Source: a virus. From it: 36,835 nt of DNA. The translations under genes and the position numbers were made by a program. Location of the stretch: the IMG/VR virus record IMGVR_UViG_3300037584_001599, positions 1 through 36,835 of that record; one strand, 5' to 3'. The notes beneath the pieces are model-generated. The model searched no databases, was not told the DNA's origin, and saw nothing but the letters and a program-made list of their open reading frames with translations. Below, in pieces: positions 30,718-36,835 of the stretch (positions are counted from its first letter, which is position 1; each line of letters opens with the position of its first letter).

Positions 30718-31041
30718 ATGGGATTTAGCTACAAAAAAAATATAGGAAAAGGTTATCAAATGAAACATGGCAATAGTGCATTTAAAATGTCAGTAGAGAA
30801 TAGTGTAAATTCTAACTCAAATATTAGAGATGCTTCTGAATTATTAAAAGATCAACCAGGCTACAATCCTGAATTAGGGACAATTGTTATAGGGGGTACA
30901 GTGCCTGTTGGCCCAAAAATTACAAAAGTAATGAAAGTTGCTAAGGTTTTAGGAAATATGCTTACTAATAGCAATCCGCCAAATGAAATAGTAAAACCTC
31001 TTGACACTGAACGTATTGCTTCTTATAAATTTAACAATTAA
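30718..31041 (+). CDS. Hypothetical protein at the end of the rightward unit
   Basis: I take the ATG at 30718 (107 residues, MGFSYKKNIGKGYQ), four bases after the nuclease stop; an upstream in-frame start at 30670 would overlap the nuclease gene. The protein has a basic N-terminus, a Gly/Pro-rich middle ('GTIVIGGTVPVGPKITK') and no recognised motif. Its stop TAA overlaps the stop of the converging nrdA gene within a TTAA at 31038-31041. Confidence 0.6.
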   Translation: MGFSYKKNIGKGYQMKHGNSAFKMSVENSVNSNSNIRDASELLKDQPGYNPELGTIVIGGTVPVGPKITKVMKVAKVLGNMLTNSNPPNEIVKPLDTERIASYKFNN

Positions 31042-32759
31042 CCATCGCAGGCTAAACAATTCTCATCCATAGCTTGTTGAGCAATATCTCCTCTTAGTAC
31101 AGACTCTGTACGAACATAATACAAAGTTTTAATACCTTTTTTCCACGCCTCTAAATGAACTTTATTAATCCATTTAGGTGTAGCTACAGAAGGAAATGCT
31201 AAATTTAAACTAACAGATTGGTCAATATATTGTTGACGTATACCTGCTTGGTTAACTAATTCTAGCTGATTAATTTCCTTGAAAGTTTTGAATATTTCTT
31301 TGACGGGTATGTCGTGACTTCCGTAGGTAATTTTGTCTAATGCTTTGATACCTTGGATTGACCCTCCGTCTTGAAGAATTTTGTTCCATATCTTTTCGTT
31401 ATCTAATTTATGTTTTCTTAATATCTTTTTTAATGTAGGATTTTTTCTTATAAAGGTTCCTTTCGCAGACTGCTCAGTAAAAATATTAGCGGCCCAAGGC
31501 TCAATGCCAGGACTAACGTTCCCACTAAGCTTACTATTAGACACAGTAGGAGCAATAGCCCGCAAATGGGTGTTACGCATGCCAGTACCACGACACCATA
31601 ACGGTTCACCATATGTTTCAGCCAACCCCCTACTCGCTCTTTCACTTTCAATTTTAATTTGTGAAAATATTCTACGAGTTTCAAACTGTGCGAGTAAACC
31701 TTCAAAAGGAATACCTTTGTTTTGTAAATAGGTATGCCAGCCAAGAACACCAAGTCCAAGAGCTCTACCCTTTTCAGCCGACCTAACAGCGTTTTCAAAT
31801 CCATATCTGTATTTTGCTCTTTGTATAAATTCTTCAAGTACTCCATCCAAGAACCAAATCGCGTCATGAATGATGTTAGTATTTTTCCATTCTTCATATT
31901 TTGCCAAGTTTAATGATGATAAACAACATACAAAACTGTGTGACTCATCTGTGTGTAGTGTTATTTCACTACAAATATTAGTCATATGTACTTTTAAAGC
32001 GTTGTCTTTGTACGCTGTTGGATTTTGTTTGTTAGTGTTTCCTTTAAAAAGTATATAAGGTTCTCCAGTCGCTTTACGTTTTTGCAATAACTTACTCCAT
32101 TTTTTTCTTGCGACTTTATCGCCTGCTTCAAGTCTTCGCATGAATTTATCGCCGACGACAGCGCATTGATGTAAGTTAAGCGATTGTCTGTTGATGTCTC
32201 CTTTAGGTTCTCTAATTTCGAGCCACTCTTCAAAATCATCGTGGTCAATATTAATATTAACGCTAGCTGCTCCTCTTCTAACGGATCCTTGATTTGTTGC
32301 AAGAATAGTTGAATCGTATATTTTACAGAAAGGCACCACTCCGTCGCTTGTTCCATTTCCAGTTATTTTTGCGCCAGCGGGTCTAATCATATTAATTCCG
32401 ATACCTACTCCACCGCCGTGCTTAGCGAGTAACATCATCTCTAAATTCTTTTTACCAATATCTTGTATACTATCAGCAACATCAATTCCAAAACAACTAA
32501 TAGGTAAACCTCTATCTATACCTGTATTAGAAAGCACTGGGGAAGCTAAACATAACCAACCTTTCCATATATATTCAAAAAAAGTTTCAGCTAATTCTGG
32601 GCGATATAAACGCTTAGCAACAGTTGTTGCAACACGTTCATAAGCATCTTTAGGTGACTCACCATTATATAAATAACCTCCTGTTATTGTTTTTTTATAA
32701 ACATCTGTATCACCCCAAGCAGGATAATCAACTCCTTTTTTCCAATCTTTATTCCACAT
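31038..32759 (-). CDS. nrdA: Ribonucleotide reductase, large (alpha) subunit, class I
   Basis: A 573-residue class I alpha subunit that reduces ribonucleoside diphosphates to deoxynucleotides. Active-site residues are all visible: C89 in 'GLPISCFGI', N261-x-C263-x-E265 in 'NICSEI', C278 in 'VCCLSSLNL', the radical-path pair Y547-Y548 in 'LYYVRT', and the C-terminal reducing pair 'CLAC' (C568, C571). There is no N-terminal ATP-cone, so the usual allosteric on/off switch is absent, as in short phage alpha subunits. It is downstream of nrdB with a small membrane protein between, all leftward. A segment at about 31480-31640 has higher G+C (47-50%) than the rest. Confidence 0.94.
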   Translation of the reverse strand: MWNKDWKKGVDYPAWGDTDVYKKTITGGYLYNGESPKDAYERVATTVAKRLYRPELAETFFEYIWKGWLCLASPVLSNTGIDRGLPISCFGIDVADSIQDIGKKNLEMMLLAKHGGGVGIGINMIRPAGAKITGNGTSDGVVPFCKIYDSTILATNQGSVRRGAASVNINIDHDDFEEWLEIREPKGDINRQSLNLHQCAVVGDKFMRRLEAGDKVARKKWSKLLQKRKATGEPYILFKGNTNKQNPTAYKDNALKVHMTNICSEITLHTDESHSFVCCLSSLNLAKYEEWKNTNIIHDAIWFLDGVLEEFIQRAKYRYGFENAVRSAEKGRALGLGVLGWHTYLQNKGIPFEGLLAQFETRRIFSQIKIESERASRGLAETYGEPLWCRGTGMRNTHLRAIAPTVSNSKLSGNVSPGIEPWAANIFTEQSAKGTFIRKNPTLKKILRKHKLDNEKIWNKILQDGGSIQGIKALDKITYGSHDIPVKEIFKTFKEINQLELVNQAGIRQQYIDQSVSLNLAFPSVATPKWINKVHLEAWKKGIKTLYYVRTESVLRGDIAQQAMDENCLACDG

Positions 32760-32760
32760 A

Positions 32761-33009
32761 TTATTTTAAAAAATGATTAATCCAAGCTGCTAAACCATTA
32801 AGATTTAGAGCTACTAAATTCCATTGCTTACGTGATGATACTTGTACTATCACGCAAATAAAACCTATTATAAATAATATAGGTTCTAATGTCCATTGAC
32901 CAGCCATCAAAAAAGCTGCACCCGCATATCCAACACGGGACGCAAACTTTTGATAGCTTGTTAATTTATTTGTATAGACTAGTAGTCTAAGTAGTTTTCT
33001 TTTTACCAT
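32761..33009 (-). CDS. Small membrane protein between nrdB and nrdA
   Basis: An 82-residue protein with one or two hydrophobic segments ('GYAGAAFLMAGQ' and 'EPILFIIGFICVIVQV') and a C-terminal 'NLVALNLNGLAAWINHFL'. The start overlaps the nrdB stop by seven bases (ATGGTAA), and its stop is one base from the nrdA start, so it is made together with the reductase. Position hints at a role in nucleotide or cofactor supply, but no family is certain. Confidence 0.6.
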   Translation of the reverse strand: MVKRKLLRLLVYTNKLTSYQKFASRVGYAGAAFLMAGQWTLEPILFIIGFICVIVQVSSRKQWNLVALNLNGLAAWINHFLK

Positions 33010-33962
33010 ATGTCTTCAAAATCTTCACCTTCATTAGCCTTGCTATAATCAGTTGGCCTGATTGCAAAAAAGTCGGTATGAGTGTGACCACCAGTAAGAT
33101 GATAAAACCAGTTAAGATTATTTGCACAGCCTTCATCATAAGTAAAAACACCGTTATAACCCAGTTCATTAAGTTTTTCATTTAATCTTTTCTTTATAAA
33201 GTGTTTTAAATCTTTTGCTTTTAGGTTTTCAATATCACCCATTTCAAACATTTTATCAATATATTTCATTTCAGCATCATGCATTAAACTAGCTGCTTCT
33301 ATTATATCTTTTTCAGCATCTTTTTTAAGTGTAGGCATTTCTTCACACATATGTCTAAATAATCTACAACCCATTTTACTATGCAACGATTCATCTCTTA
33401 CAGACCATTTCATTTGTTGGCCTATTCCTTTGAGAAGGTTTCGTAGCTGAAAAGAATATAAAACAGCGAAAGCACTATATAAACTAACGCCCTCTGCAAA
33501 GGCGGAAAAGATTGCCAAGCTACGACCGATACCCACAGGATCATTACCGTCATAACCAACCAAATTATCAAATCTTTCTGCCGTAGCAGGTTCGTGTAAA
33601 AACGCTTCAAAGTCTTCCAATCCAAGTGTTTCATTTAAATAACTATAAGCTACAGCGTGTATTGTTTCTTGTGAGCCGAACATCATAGCCATTTGCTGTA
33701 TCTCATGTTTTGGAAACCATGATACGACTTTTTGTGTCCAATAATCTGACACTGCACATTCAGTTTGTGCAAATCCTAATAAAATATTGCCTACTAAATG
33801 TTTTTCTTCTTTTGTTAATTTTTCATTCCAGTCTTTAACATCACCTGACATAGGTATTTCCGTGTGTAACCAAAACGCCTGAGCTTGTTTTAACCAGCCT
33901 TCTGTGTAGTACTCAGGATACTCAAAAGGTTTATAAGGTATTCTTTCATCAAATAATCCCAT
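33003..33962 (-). CDS. nrdB: Ribonucleotide reductase, small (beta) subunit, class Id-like ligand set
   Basis: A 319-residue ferritin-like beta subunit that generates the radical used by NrdA. Ligands by alignment with the family: E68 ('AQTECA'), E99 and H102 ('QETIHAVAY'), E157 ('AFAEGV'), E191 and H194 ('RDESLH'). Tyr106 occupies the place of the radical tyrosine. The first ligand is Glu, not the Asp usual in class Ia; Glu together with a retained Tyr is the pattern described for class Id dimanganese enzymes of Flavobacterium, whereas class Ic has Glu with Phe. The acidic C-terminus 'EGEDFEDIW' is the tail that docks to NrdA. The start is one base from the stop of the upstream 49-residue gene. 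Confidence 0.93.
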   Translation of the reverse strand: MGLFDERIPYKPFEYPEYYTEGWLKQAQAFWLHTEIPMSGDVKDWNEKLTKEEKHLVGNILLGFAQTECAVSDYWTQKVVSWFPKHEIQQMAMMFGSQETIHAVAYSYLNETLGLEDFEAFLHEPATAERFDNLVGYDGNDPVGIGRSLAIFSAFAEGVSLYSAFAVLYSFQLRNLLKGIGQQMKWSVRDESLHSKMGCRLFRHMCEEMPTLKKDAEKDIIEAASLMHDAEMKYIDKMFEMGDIENLKAKDLKHFIKKRLNEKLNELGYNGVFTYDEGCANNLNWFYHLTGGHTHTDFFAIRPTDYSKANEGEDFEDIW

Positions 33963-34249: not shown

Positions 34250-34412
34250 AACATTTTATTGAGTATTTATTATGTATAAACATTAAGTCCTTCCACCTTA
34301 AACCTCCTCTAGATTTAATGCTCCATTTAATAAACGTGTCTATTTTACGTTCTTTATACTTTCTCCTGGCAATATGTTTGGAGTTTGAAGTATTTCTATT
34401 ACTTTGTCGCAT
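34242..34412 (-). CDS. Possible small basic protein (56 residues)
   Basis: An open frame from the ATG at 34412 (MRQSDRNTSNSKHIARRK) to 34242. It overlaps the end of the endonuclease gene by 73 bases and the start of the next gene by eight (ATGGCTAA), the same overlap form seen at terminase/portal. The product is very basic, with 'WSIKSRGGLRWKDLMF'. Without this frame, 34250-34339 would be an unexplained gap in a tightly packed unit. The long overlap with a conserved gene leaves it uncertain. Confidence 0.4.
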   Translation of the reverse strand: MRQSNRNTSNSKHIARRKYKERKIDTFIKWSIKSRGGLRWKDLMFIHNKYSIKCYG

Positions 34413-34825
34413 TCTTTTTGATTTTGTGGTTTAAATAATTTGTAGTTAGGAAATTGTTGCATAACTAATCTTTTAAATAATTTCCATCTCATTGGAAATG
34501 ATTCGTTAGGTCTTCCTTTTGTTTCAATAATAAAGTCTTTACCAATAAAATCTGGTGTATATTTAATAGGCAATATTCTTTTTTCACCTCTATTCTTAAA
34601 CTCGCCTTTACTATTTGATTGTCTTTCCCAACATTCATTTTCAAAATGAAATCCATTTAATAATACAAAGGTTTCACCTTCATAACTAGATTTAATATGT
34701 GCTTTTTTCAAAGCTTGATACATATATTTTTCTAACCCGGAAGCGAAGGTGATACCATCGTATGTTACTTTTTTTGAAACTACAGGACCTCTTTTTTTAC
34801 TTTTTCTTTTATAGTTCCGTCTCAT
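34340..34825 (-). CDS. T7 endonuclease I-like Holliday-junction resolvase
   Basis: A 161-residue PD-(D/E)XK nuclease. 'FASGLEKYMYQALKK' (E32), 'YTPDF' (D92) and 'FIIETKGRP' (E101, K103) follow the order and residues of T7 endonuclease I ('FRSGLED', 'YTPDF', 'FVETKG'). That enzyme resolves branched replication intermediates and helps break host DNA. About 25 extra residues separate E32 and D92 compared with T7. A basic N-terminus (KRKSKKRG) may contact DNA. Its start overlaps the end of the MazG-like gene by 17 bases. Confidence 0.75.
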   Translation of the reverse strand: MRRNYKRKSKKRGPVVSKKVTYDGITFASGLEKYMYQALKKAHIKSSYEGETFVLLNGFHFENECWERQSNSKGEFKNRGEKRILPIKYTPDFIGKDFIIETKGRPNESFPMRWKLFKRLVMQQFPNYKLFKPQNQKECDKVIEILQTPNILPGESIKNVK

Positions 34826-35105
34826 CGTAGTGTTCTATATTAGATATGTTTTTGTTAAATTCTTCTTCACTAATTAACTCTACTCTTTTTAACATACATT
34901 CTTCTATTTCATCACATAATACAAGTTTAGCTTTTTCAATATAATTAACAGCATCCATTAATTCTTCTTGTATATGTGTTAGCCAAGTTTCAAGTGACTG
35001 ATCATCGTCTTGTAATGTAACGCCGTATTTTTTATAGCCTACATCTGAACGTGATTTAATCTTATTAATAACACGCTCAATTACTTTATCTCTGACTTTA
35101 TTCAT
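34809..35105 (-). CDS. Small MazG-like (all-alpha NTP pyrophosphatase) protein
   Basis: I place the start at the ATG at 35105, giving 98 residues. This creates an eight-base ATGAATAA overlap with the upstream stop; the alternative ATG at 35123 adds six residues but a 26-base overlap. The region 'SRSDVGYKKYGVTLQ' and 'SLETWLTHIQEELMDAVNYI' has the 'EELMDA' helix (E47, E48, D51) typical of MazG-type metal sites and resembles short phage pyrophosphatase-like proteins. The second acidic motif is weaker ('CDEIEE'). These enzymes hydrolyse dNTPs or NTPs to monophosphates; the substrate is unknown. Confidence 0.55.
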   Translation of the reverse strand: MNKVRDKVIERVINKIKSRSDVGYKKYGVTLQDDDQSLETWLTHIQEELMDAVNYIEKAKLVLCDEIEECMLKRVELISEEEFNKNISNIEHYDETEL

Positions 35106-35868
35106 CTTTAACAAATGTTCCATTAATCATCTTTCCGGTTCTGTCAGCTATTTGATTATATGCTGATGCTATACAAGTTTCAATTCTAACGTTTCTTTGT
35201 TCTGCTAAATTAGTTAATACAACTACCATATCACCAATCGCATCAACAAATTCTGCTTGATCATCTTTGAGCATTGCTTTAGCTAATTCACCAGCTTCTT
35301 CTTGTAATTTAATATATTGAGTCCTGGCATCTCCATTTTCATATATACCTCTTACTTTAGCCCAATTCCTAATTGAATCAAATATACTTTGTTTAGATTC
35401 AATATAGTCTTGTAAAACTTCTAAGCTGTTAAAATTGCTAAATGCTTCCCATAAAGCTTTATTATATACATAGCTTCTTTCGCTATTAAATCTTGAGGTA
35501 TGAGCATTGTCTTCAATCCATCTAGACATTTCTTCATCTAGTATAATTTTGCCAAACTCAGTTTCCCAAGTCATTCCTAAGCTATCCATTAATCTACCTT
35601 TAAGTTTATTAACGGGTACTGGGAATGTTGTGGTTTGTTCGGTTACGTTTATTTTCATTTTAAATAAATTTTTATAAAGTTTATTATCAATCTTATATCC
35701 ATAAGACTGTTGAAGTTCTATCTCTTTATCTGATATATAATCTATATCATCTGACTGATCAAGAACTTCGTACTCTCCAGGCTTGTAGCCCTGCATTAGC
35801 GTAACCCTGTTATTAAGATTACGTGTTACACCAATTTTTTTACCAGGTATATGATAAATATAATACAT
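35098..35868 (-). CDS. GIY-YIG-like / MazG pyrophosphatase fusion
   Basis: A 256-residue two-part protein. The N-terminal ~70 residues ('YYIYHIPGKKIGVTRNLNNR') resemble a GIY-YIG nuclease core: a variant first strand, 'GKKIGVT' in place of 'GK.YIG.T' (second Tyr missing), and the catalytic-type Arg in 'NLNNRV'; a Glu occurs in 'DKEIELQQ'. The C-terminal domain (about 180-250) is MazG-type: 'LQEEAGEL' (E190, E191, E194) and 'EFVDAIGDMVVVL' (E206, D209, D213). MazG enzymes strip pyrophosphate from (d)NTPs. The nuclease-like part may have lost activity. Its ATG shares a base with the stop of the thymidylate-synthase-family gene. Confidence 0.72.
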   Translation of the reverse strand: MYYIYHIPGKKIGVTRNLNNRVTLMQGYKPGEYEVLDQSDDIDYISDKEIELQQSYGYKIDNKLYKNLFKMKINVTEQTTTFPVPVNKLKGRLMDSLGMTWETEFGKIILDEEMSRWIEDNAHTSRFNSERSYVYNKALWEAFSNFNSLEVLQDYIESKQSIFDSIRNWAKVRGIYENGDARTQYIKLQEEAGELAKAMLKDDQAEFVDAIGDMVVVLTNLAEQRNVRIETCIASAYNQIADRTGKMINGTFVKDE

Positions 35869-36710
35869 TATTTTCCAACGTTTAGTTTTGCCTTTATTGG
35901 AGGCAAAGAATTATAATTAATTATTTTAAATTGTTTTTTATTTGGTATCTTTAATCCAGGATCACTTCTGTGACCACCTTCATATATAATACCATCACCA
36001 GTTATTTTCAATTTAGGTAATTCAATATTGCTTACATCTCTGTATACATATTCTTCTGCAGCCTCAATATGATTAAGATATAAATGGCAATCACCAAGTT
36101 GTGCAATAAGCTTACCTGGTTTATATTCTGTATTGTGACATAACAATTCAAGTAATATACCATACATTGCAATATCATAAGGTAAACCTAAGAATACATC
36201 TGCAGAACGTTGAATCCATATTAAATCCATTTTACCATTATTTATATTAACTTGTAAACCATAATGGCATGGTGGTAATACCATATTCTTTAATTTATCT
36301 GCTCTCCAAGCATTTATAATATGTCTTCTTGATGATGGATTAACACTAATATTATATATTAAGTTCATAAGTTGGTCATAGCCATTAAAGTCACGCCATT
36401 GTGCACCATAAACTGGGCCAAGCTTTCCGTCTTTACGACCAGACCTTGCATAATCATCATCCCAATAGTGAACCCCATTCTCATGTAAATAACCTAAGTC
36501 TGTTCTACCTTGTAGTATCCATAACAGTTCGGTAATAGCATGATTAAAATATATCTTCTTTCCAACTAATAAAGGAAAGCCTATAGACATATCATGCTCT
36601 AATTGTCTACCAAATAATGATTTAGTACCAACTCCGGTTCTATCTTCTTTTGTAGGGGCATGCAATAAACTTGCCATTAAAGCTCTATATTGATTTTCTA
36701 TATTTGTCAT
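35868..36710 (-). CDS. thyA: Thymidylate-synthase-family enzyme with dCMP-type specificity residue
   Basis: I start at the ATG at 36710 (MTNIENQYRA, 280 residues). An ATG 17 codons upstream would overlap the preceding gene far more. The fold is clearly ThyA: R24 ('EDRTGVGT'), E61 ('ELLWILQG'), R128-R129 ('SSRRHI'), catalytic C148 ('LPPCHYG'), R168 and D171 ('QRSADVFLG'), H209 and Y211 ('DCHLYLNH'). But the residue that selects dUMP is Asp179 ('LGLPYDIAMY'), where thymidylate synthases have Asn. Asp here is the hallmark of dCMP-specific relatives such as T4 dCMP hydroxymethylase. The C-terminus 'KAKLNVGK' also departs from the usual 'KAPVAI'-type end. I infer action on dCMP, with classical thymidylate synthase as the alternative. 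Confidence 0.9.
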   Translation of the reverse strand: MTNIENQYRALMASLLHAPTKEDRTGVGTKSLFGRQLEHDMSIGFPLLVGKKIYFNHAITELLWILQGRTDLGYLHENGVHYWDDDYARSGRKDGKLGPVYGAQWRDFNGYDQLMNLIYNISVNPSSRRHIINAWRADKLKNMVLPPCHYGLQVNINNGKMDLIWIQRSADVFLGLPYDIAMYGILLELLCHNTEYKPGKLIAQLGDCHLYLNHIEAAEEYVYRDVSNIELPKLKITGDGIIYEGGHRSDPGLKIPNKKQFKIINYNSLPPIKAKLNVGK

Positions 36711-36835
36711 AATAATATTTACACATTCTATAATATTCAGACCATATTGTATGTTTATCATAAATAGATGGCGATATATTTCCTCTCTCGCCTTTTTTAT
36801 ATGGTCCCATTCTAATTTCTATTTTCCAAGCCTGA
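36685..36835 (-). CDS. C-terminal end of a leftward gene (cut by the window edge)
   Basis: The leftward frame is open from the right edge to a TAG at 36685-36687, giving 49 visible residues including 'MGPYKKGERGNISPS' and 'WSEYYRMCKYYYDKYRKSI'. It overlaps the thyA-family start by 26 bases, as neighbouring genes do here. Basic and aromatic-rich; no family can be assigned from the fragment. Confidence 0.55.
   Translation of the reverse strand, partial: QAWKIEIRMGPYKKGERGNISPSIYDKHTIWSEYYRMCKYYYDKYRKSI

Follow-up and report, generated by a model that had tools for sequence, protein, structure and literature searches.

This study was concerned with a ThyA-family gene and the gene next to it in IMG/VR virus record IMGVR_UViG_3300037584_001599. 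The whole 36.8 kb virus record (36,835 nucleotides) was analyzed and is referred to here as the window. The two genes, and the codon on which the argument turns, are as follows.

35868-36710, minus strand: ThyA-family enzyme of 280 amino acids, predicted deoxycytidine monophosphate (dCMP) methylase forming 5-methyl-dCMP (from PF00303, residues, relatives and tree)
36174-36176, minus strand: codon GAT, Asp179 (position 177 of E. coli ThyA), the base-selecting residue (read directly, and in 21 of 21 relatives)
35098-35868, minus strand: fusion of GIY-YIG (T5orf172-like) and MazG/PRA-PH parts, 256 amino acids, probable deoxycytidine triphosphate (dCTP) pyrophosphohydrolase (from PF01503, adjacency and model)

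The 280-residue ThyA protein matches the PF00303 profile with 256.7 bits (cut-off 24.3); a longer in-frame ATG at 36761 would give a protein of 297 amino acids. Its best sequence match among solved structures is 1tis (E 1.3e-58), and a structure search gave Z 36.3 with 39% identity to an E. coli thymidylate synthase (TS) chain. All 50 entries listed by the VIA-align structure search are TSs or dihydrofolate reductase (DHFR)-TS proteins; T4 dCMP hydroxymethylase is not among them, from which nothing follows. In its own numbering the protein carries E61, W83, Y101, R128, R129, C148, H149, R168, S169, D171, H209 and Y211, and the TS-family set (Glu58, Cys146, Arg126/127, Arg166, Ser167, Asp169, His207 and Tyr209 in E. 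coli TS numbering) is complete. The first-pass annotation had described the catalytic set as intact apart from an Asp at the position that selects deoxyuridine monophosphate (dUMP), and both statements are borne out. The plus strand reads ATC at 36174-36176, the coding strand GAT, and the motif 'LGLPYDIAMY' places Asp179 where a canonical dUMP-using TS has Asn177. Asp occupies this position in 21 of 21 IMG/VR relatives (76-98% identity) and is thus neither a chance change nor a sequencing error.

The same annotation held that the C-terminus lacks the usual ThyA ending. This was mostly wrong, because the C-terminus NYNSLPPIKAKLNVGK aligns with the usual TS end, which is NYVSHPPIKGKMA in T4 Td and 'PIKGKMAV' in T2 Td. 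The TS-like tail of the window protein, IKAKLNVGK, extends past that end by two residues, Gly-Lys (GK), which are kept in 21 of 21 relatives. At positions 143 and 147 of E. coli TS the window protein has Leu (its own Leu145, three before the catalytic Cys) and His. Trp83 of E. coli TS is replaced (by Asp in the alignment) and is also missing in T2 Td, which is a TS.

In the T4 dCMP hydroxymethylase (gp42), Asp179 has been named as the determinant of dCMP, and Asp145 (three before Cys148), Ser94/Tyr96 and a missing C-terminal tail as the features of hydroxymethylation; the D145N enzyme yields no 5-hydroxymethyl-dCMP (PMC6400193, in excerpt). The window protein shares Asp179. It does not have Asp or Glu at 145, it has Pro99-Val-Tyr101 where gp42 has Ser94/Tyr96 and thus no Ser or Thr two residues before the Tyr, and its tail is present. 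Asp177 without Asp or Glu at 143 is the residue pattern of a dCMP methylase, and this is the pattern of the window protein. The first-pass annotation had offered 'hydroxymethylase or methylase'. The methylase is supported by Leu145, the tail and the tree described below, and the hydroxymethylase falls away as first choice.

The IMG/VR records were scanned with an Asp and an Asn version of the motif, and the class counts given here and below for Asp and Asn enzymes and loci refer to the matches listed. The Asp version gave at least 119 stretches with 116 usable open reading frames (ORFs) and the Asn version at least 120 stretches with 114 ORFs; stretches without an ORF of 150 amino acids carrying the motif were dropped from both sets. 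The 21 close relatives contribute at least five of the 116 Asp contigs. By these counts, viruses commonly carry natural Asp enzymes. Asp143 was found in 42 of the 116 Asp-type ORFs, 40 of them with Thr147 as in gp42, and Leu143 in 72. The class of the window enzyme, Leu143/His147, comprises 37 ORFs, and the other 37 include 34 with Leu143 plus Tyr or Phe147. The Asn-type ORFs were selected for Asn and serve as a comparison set and not as a test of Asn itself; Leu143 is universal among them (114 of 114) and His147 nearly so (113 of 114). Position 176 covaries with 177: 112 of the 116 Asp enzymes have Tyr there, and 110 of the 114 Asn enzymes have Phe. This contrast is valid only within the frame of a search pattern that fixes Tyr or Phe before the Asp or Asn.

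The start of the partner gene and the ThyA stop share one base. The C-terminal half of the partner protein matches PF01503 (MazG/PRA-PH) with 27.7 bits (cut-off 21.3), and its N-terminal part matches T5orf172 in 31 of 32 family members (E up to 0.5, best 7e-7; 0.16 for the window copy). The acidic residues E190, E191, E194, D209 and D213 of the MazG domain are invariant in 32 sequences, and the protein carries the pattern EExGE...GD, which we take to be the MazG/PRA-PH acidic motif. In the GIY-YIG part, Tyr5, Arg21 and Glu49, presumably the catalytic positions, are likewise invariant in 32 sequences. The predicted structure has a mean predicted local distance difference test (pLDDT) score of 88 and a predicted template modeling (pTM) score of 0.43, so the arrangement of its parts is uncertain. 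Foldseek matched the model, mainly over its MazG half, to MazG folds including RS21-C6 and S-2L MazZ, but weakly (E 0.05-0.6 with none below 0.001, probability 0.97-1.00). The partner is a probable dCTP pyrophosphohydrolase. Full-length partner matches were seen in each of the two Asp classes with a MazG neighbour, and some copies of the Tyr/Phe147 class match the MazG part alone.

The presence of this partner follows the residue class. The loci counted were those in which 1 kb or more is visible downstream of ThyA, and the profile used was built from the partner's own family, so that it could overlook MazG genes of a different type in the sets compared. By this profile, a MazG-family gene lies beside ThyA in 29 of 33 Leu143/His147 Asp loci, 32 of 34 remaining non-Asp143 Asp loci, 0 of 34 Asp143 (gp42-like) loci and 1 of 94 Asn-type loci, the single Asn-type case lying upstream. 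Over all Asp loci listed (30 Leu143/His147 cases and 34 others) the MazG gene is always downstream on the same strand, within 300 bases in 58 of 64 and within about 410 in the other six. All 23 additional loci from the window clade and all 12 close relatives examined out of the 21 have a MazG-family neighbour too, and PF01503 was found in 19 of 19 long clade records, 16 of them above its cut-off. In published work, Asp177 TS homologues are associated with metavirome contigs selected experimentally for modified cytosine; the two positions most strongly associated with cytosine-modified phage contigs are 177 (mostly Asp) and 147, and such contigs also carry PF01503 together with TS (PMC8670742, in excerpt).

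Two trees were built without the diagnostic columns 143, 147, 176 and 177: a quick tree of 140 rows, and a careful tree of 85 rows picked after the quick tree, in which Asp rows outside three main groups were left out. In the quick tree the window ThyA falls in an all-Asp group of 32 rows, with a Shimodaira-Hasegawa-like approximate likelihood ratio test (SH-aLRT) support of 100. In the careful tree its group is again all Asp (23 of 23 sampled rows, support 100/100), the Tyr/Phe147 Asp group has support 99/99 and the Asp143 group including gp42 has 100/99. Both trees set the window ThyA among TSs and outside the gp42 group; the branch to the nearest Asn-type enzymes has support 30/7 in the careful tree. 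Changes between Asn and Asp number seven on the quick tree and three on the careful tree. The quick tree joins the Asp-type and Asn-type enzymes L033 and L177 as a sister pair (SH-aLRT 100), which may reflect a recent switch.

Our best reading, to which we give a probability of roughly 0.7, is that the window ThyA protein is a dCMP methylase which works with a dCTPase partner and serves the replacement of cytosine by 5-methylcytosine. Cys148 would attack C6 of dCMP, and Asp179 would bind and protonate the edge of the cytosine. The methylene group would be transferred from methylene-tetrahydrofolate and then reduced by the folate hydride to methyl and not hydrated, since a closed pocket of the TS type, formed with Leu145 and the C-terminal tail, may exclude water. 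The products would be 5-methyl-dCMP and dihydrofolate. The GIY-YIG-MazG partner would hydrolyse dCTP to dCMP, which would both feed the methylase and keep plain C out of the DNA, and 5-methyl-dCMP would be phosphorylated to the triphosphate by host kinases. The 5-methylcytosine in the phage DNA may then shield it against host restriction enzymes. The preference for dCMP and the modified cytosine proposed by the first-pass annotation are both probable.

A restriction footprint was sought as depletion of C-containing palindromic 4-mers (ln observed/expected, up to 40 kb per genome), a measure that ignores kinship and host. The clade genomes are near expectation, with mean values of -0.10 to -0.30 and a strongly depleted 4-mer in 1 of 20, which counts in favour of our reading; the window's own value of -0.30 is at the low end of this range. 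Of the terminase relatives that lack the ThyA motif in the stretch read, 5 of 7 show strong depletion at some sites (Mann-Whitney p 0.003 versus the clade), for example GATC with 0 seen versus about 127 expected and CATG with 0 seen versus about 96 expected. Among loci of at least 9 kb, strong depletion was found in 1 of 18 Leu143/His147 Asp loci, 28 of 61 Asn loci and 6 of 19 Asp143 loci. Phages phi46:3 and phi13:2, without the ThyA motif in the 50 kb read, likewise have no palindrome depletion. In the set L281, L282 and L315, 40 kb of MW202828 and of Maribacter phage Panino contain zero GATC and zero CCGG, and 40 kb of Flavobacterium phage elemoF contain zero CATG and zero GGCC.

Several observations weigh against 5-methyl-dCMP production as set out above. 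First, strong depletion (GATC, CATG and others) was found in 7 of 8 loci of the non-Asp143, non-His147 Asp class, which counts against a general rule; the depleted contigs of this Tyr/Phe147 class, a class that mostly has a MazG neighbour, are L042, L048, L049, L074, L089, L096 and L137. Secondly, the Xp12-like cassette has a DHFR and a dCMP deaminase. In the window clade (30 virus records besides the window, which may be fragments) DHFR was found in 0 of 19 long records, so that dihydrofolate would need recycling by the host, and dCMP deaminase in 0 of 30. In addition, no kinase for 5-methyl-dCMP turned up. Third, PF01503 also accompanies contigs with carbamoyltransferases acting on hydroxymethylcytosine (PMC8670742, in excerpt); its presence thus favours cytosine modification and does not separate methyl from hydroxymethyl. 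Fourth, two marks of hydroxymethylases are not clean: the tail position aligns residues in 13 of 42 Asp143 enzymes, and no more than 14 of the 116 Asp enzymes have Ser at position 92, as the methylase-like AXL1 also does. Thus, it is mainly position 143 that decides here for methyl and against hydroxymethyl. Lastly, the phylogeny, which the first-pass annotation had named as a check, separates the window clade from gp42 in both trees, but the approximately unbiased (AU) test does not reject the window clade plus the gp42 group (p 0.122), nor a single clade made up of every sampled Asp enzyme (p 0.131). Independent origin of the Asp groups is for this reason favoured and not shown; the trees prefer several origins to a single one, which the AU test leaves unrejected.

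The alternative that survives best, though quite unlikely, is a dCMP hydroxymethylase like T4 gp42, in which the methylene would be hydrated and the DNA would carry 5-hydroxymethylcytosine or a derivative. Such an enzyme has the base-selecting Asp in common with the window protein and needs no DHFR, as the long clade records have none; the loss of Trp83 and the AU result for the gp42 relatives also agree with it. However, the loss of Trp83 in T2 Td takes weight from the former, and the Leu at 143, the C-terminal tail, the grouping among TSs and the carbamoyltransferase C-domain found in 0 of 19 long clade records all speak for the methylase. Searches of the same 19 records for a C5 DNA methylase also gave 0 of 19, which likewise counts for our main reading. 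The Tet/JBP dioxygenase profile gave 0 of 19 as well, but its control matched nowhere, so this zero carries no weight.

It is very unlikely that 5-methyl-dCMP is mainly a route to deoxythymidine monophosphate through a deaminase, which would mean thymidine supply and ordinary DNA. Exactly one TS-family gene was found in 30 of 30 clade records and ThyX in 0 of 30, as this route would have it, but the deaminase itself is absent from the 30 records, though the host may supply it, and the MazG neighbour fits pool cleaning better. A second TS, considered as proof of a non-TS role, was found in none of the 30, each having one ThyA.

An ordinary or dual-specificity TS that still uses dUMP despite the Asp has an equally low probability. 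The TS fold and sequence, the kept His147 and the position as sole TS gene of the clade records are what would be expected of it. Yet Asn-to-Asp enzymes have been reported to switch to dCMP (studies cited in PMC8670742, in excerpt), the Asp is fixed across the clade, and Asn-type enzymes almost never have the MazG-family neighbour. A cytidine monophosphate hydroxymethylase like MilA or BcmA is rejected, because the window protein has Ser169 and Arg128/129 and not the Ala and Lys that, in place of TS Ser167 and Arg126, mark the ribose preference of MilA (PMC5175136, in excerpt).

A wider role for the pair is tentative and rather unlikely, namely that the pair is a self-contained operon for cytosine replacement in uncultured flavophages. 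Its TS would have turned into a dCMP methylase when the engineered Asn-to-Asp change recurred in nature, the MazG part of the partner would destroy dCTP, and the GIY-YIG part would cut plain-cytosine DNA. The invariant Tyr5, Arg21 and Glu49 would be in support of the cutting role. One partner protein would then combine roles that T4 splits between gp56, which is annotated as dCTPase, and EndoII, a cytosine-DNA-specific GIY-YIG nuclease.

Further genes of the window, all at lower coordinates than the pair, are the following.

34809-35123, minus strand: small conserved phage protein in the same gene run (phrog_11184)
34340-34825, minus strand: DUF1064 / Holliday-junction-resolvase-like protein (PF06356, phrog_190)
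33003-33962, minus strand: ribonucleotide reductase (RNR) small subunit, deoxynucleotide supply (PF00268)
31038-32759, minus strand: RNR large subunit (PF02867)

An 82-amino-acid ORF at 32761-33009, between the two RNR genes, is 98.8% identical in the relative G002 and has no Pfam match. A GroES-like gene lies at 2069-2656, shortly before the terminase gene. G002 (64.5 kb) encodes a primase-helicase, an exonuclease, Erf, a sigma-like factor, GroEL (L144:8025-9590) and RNR. The ORFs scanned (10 of 77 in G002 and 28 of the window) included none for a DNA polymerase. The window terminase matches 89 phage records, 86 of which are phages of Flavobacterium, Cellulophaga, Tenacibaculum or Maribacter, and this points to Flavobacteria-like bacteria as hosts, in agreement with the first-pass annotation. 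The cultured-phage TS closest to the window ThyA has 42.9% identity (best 60 of 3787 records) and the one closest to another clade member has 46.5% (best 10 of 3942 records). No cultured-phage TS at 60% identity was among the matches listed, and the virus lineage seems not to be cultured.

A scan of bacterial and archaeal genomes with the clade motif gave four contigs (L277, L278, L279 and L280). The TS-MazG pair is present on L279 (binned as Flaviramulus) and L280 (binned as Rickettsiales). L277 (binned as Bacteroidetes) ends 173 bases past the TS gene, so its neighbour cannot be seen. L278 and L280 are contigs of the Rickettsiales metagenome-assembled genome MED657. On visual inspection L280 carries, besides TS and MazG, genes for a DUF1064-like protein, RNR, primase and Erf and resembles these phages; it is probably mis-binned phage DNA.

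A close functional precedent is phage Xp12 (MT664984), in whose DNA 5-methylcytosine replaces all cytosine (PMC9206674 and PMC7653180, in excerpt). The cited literature, as excerpted, names no natural phage dCMP methylase other than that of Xp12. Its group was represented in our sequence comparisons by the relatives AXL1 (AXL1_63) and PaMx28 (gp52); in the excerpted AXL1 work, the modification of AXL1 was deduced from restriction resistance and kinship. Both relatives have a ThyA protein with Asp177 in 'LPYD', Asn at 143 and a PF01503 pyrophosphohydrolase beside it. The Xp12-type methyltransferase is thus like the window enzyme in Asp177, the lack of Asp143, the adjacent PF01503 protein and the predicted 5-methyl-dCMP product. 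The two types differ in several ways. AXL1_63 has 27% identity to the window ThyA, Asn143/Pro147 and no 'IKAxLNV' tail. The Xp12-type cassette includes the DHFR and dCMP deaminase that the window clade is without. In addition, its pyrophosphohydrolase lies upstream and matches no GIY-YIG family, whereas that of the window lies downstream and is fused to GIY-YIG.

The MetaGPA Asp177 homologues, compared by their published description (PMC8670742, in excerpt), share the residue change and the co-occurrence with PF01503 but as a group also differ at position 147, where the window enzyme keeps His, a further point against our reading. The E. coli and L. casei TSs engineered from Asn177/229 to Asp share the TS architecture, Leu143, His147, the tail and the Asp, and the window enzyme is in effect a natural version of that change. 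It is about 39% identical to E. coli TS, from which it differs in YD for FN, the GK extension and the absence of Trp83. T4 gp42 shares the Asp at the base-selecting position and the predicted chemistry up to the methylene intermediate; its identity to the window ThyA is 27% over 137 residues, its Asp145 and Ser94 correspond to Leu and Pro in the window, and it has no tail. The partner shares a predicted MazG fold with S-2L MazZ (7ody) and with the RS21-C6 core (2oie; 2oig with dm5CTP), and differs from both in its fusion to GIY-YIG, the Foldseek E-values being weak. MazZ is a MazG-type enzyme of a phage with an unusual DNA nucleotide, and RS21-C6 is a dCTPase.

The first-pass annotation called the trait rarely described. 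This holds for Flavobacteria as far as a single literature search shows, in which no paper was found, but Asp-type phage ThyA proteins linked to cytosine modification have been published (PMC8670742, in excerpt). No paper describing the TS-like clade, the fused partner or the flavophage setting in its title or the start of its abstract was found in a search that covered few subscription journals and few bioRxiv preprints. Our data lend support to the published rule that, given Asp177, Asp or not at 143 separates hydroxymethylating from methylating metavirome enzymes. If the reading is true, a large group of Flavobacteriia phages would have all of their cytosine 5-methylated, with consequences for host defence and for the way methylation is called in metagenomes. 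The kind of system is known, while the TS-like clade, the fused partner and the flavophage setting look new. Next to the Xp12 enzyme, the window clade would be a second, TS-like type of natural phage dCMP methylase, with a pool-cleaning partner fused to GIY-YIG.

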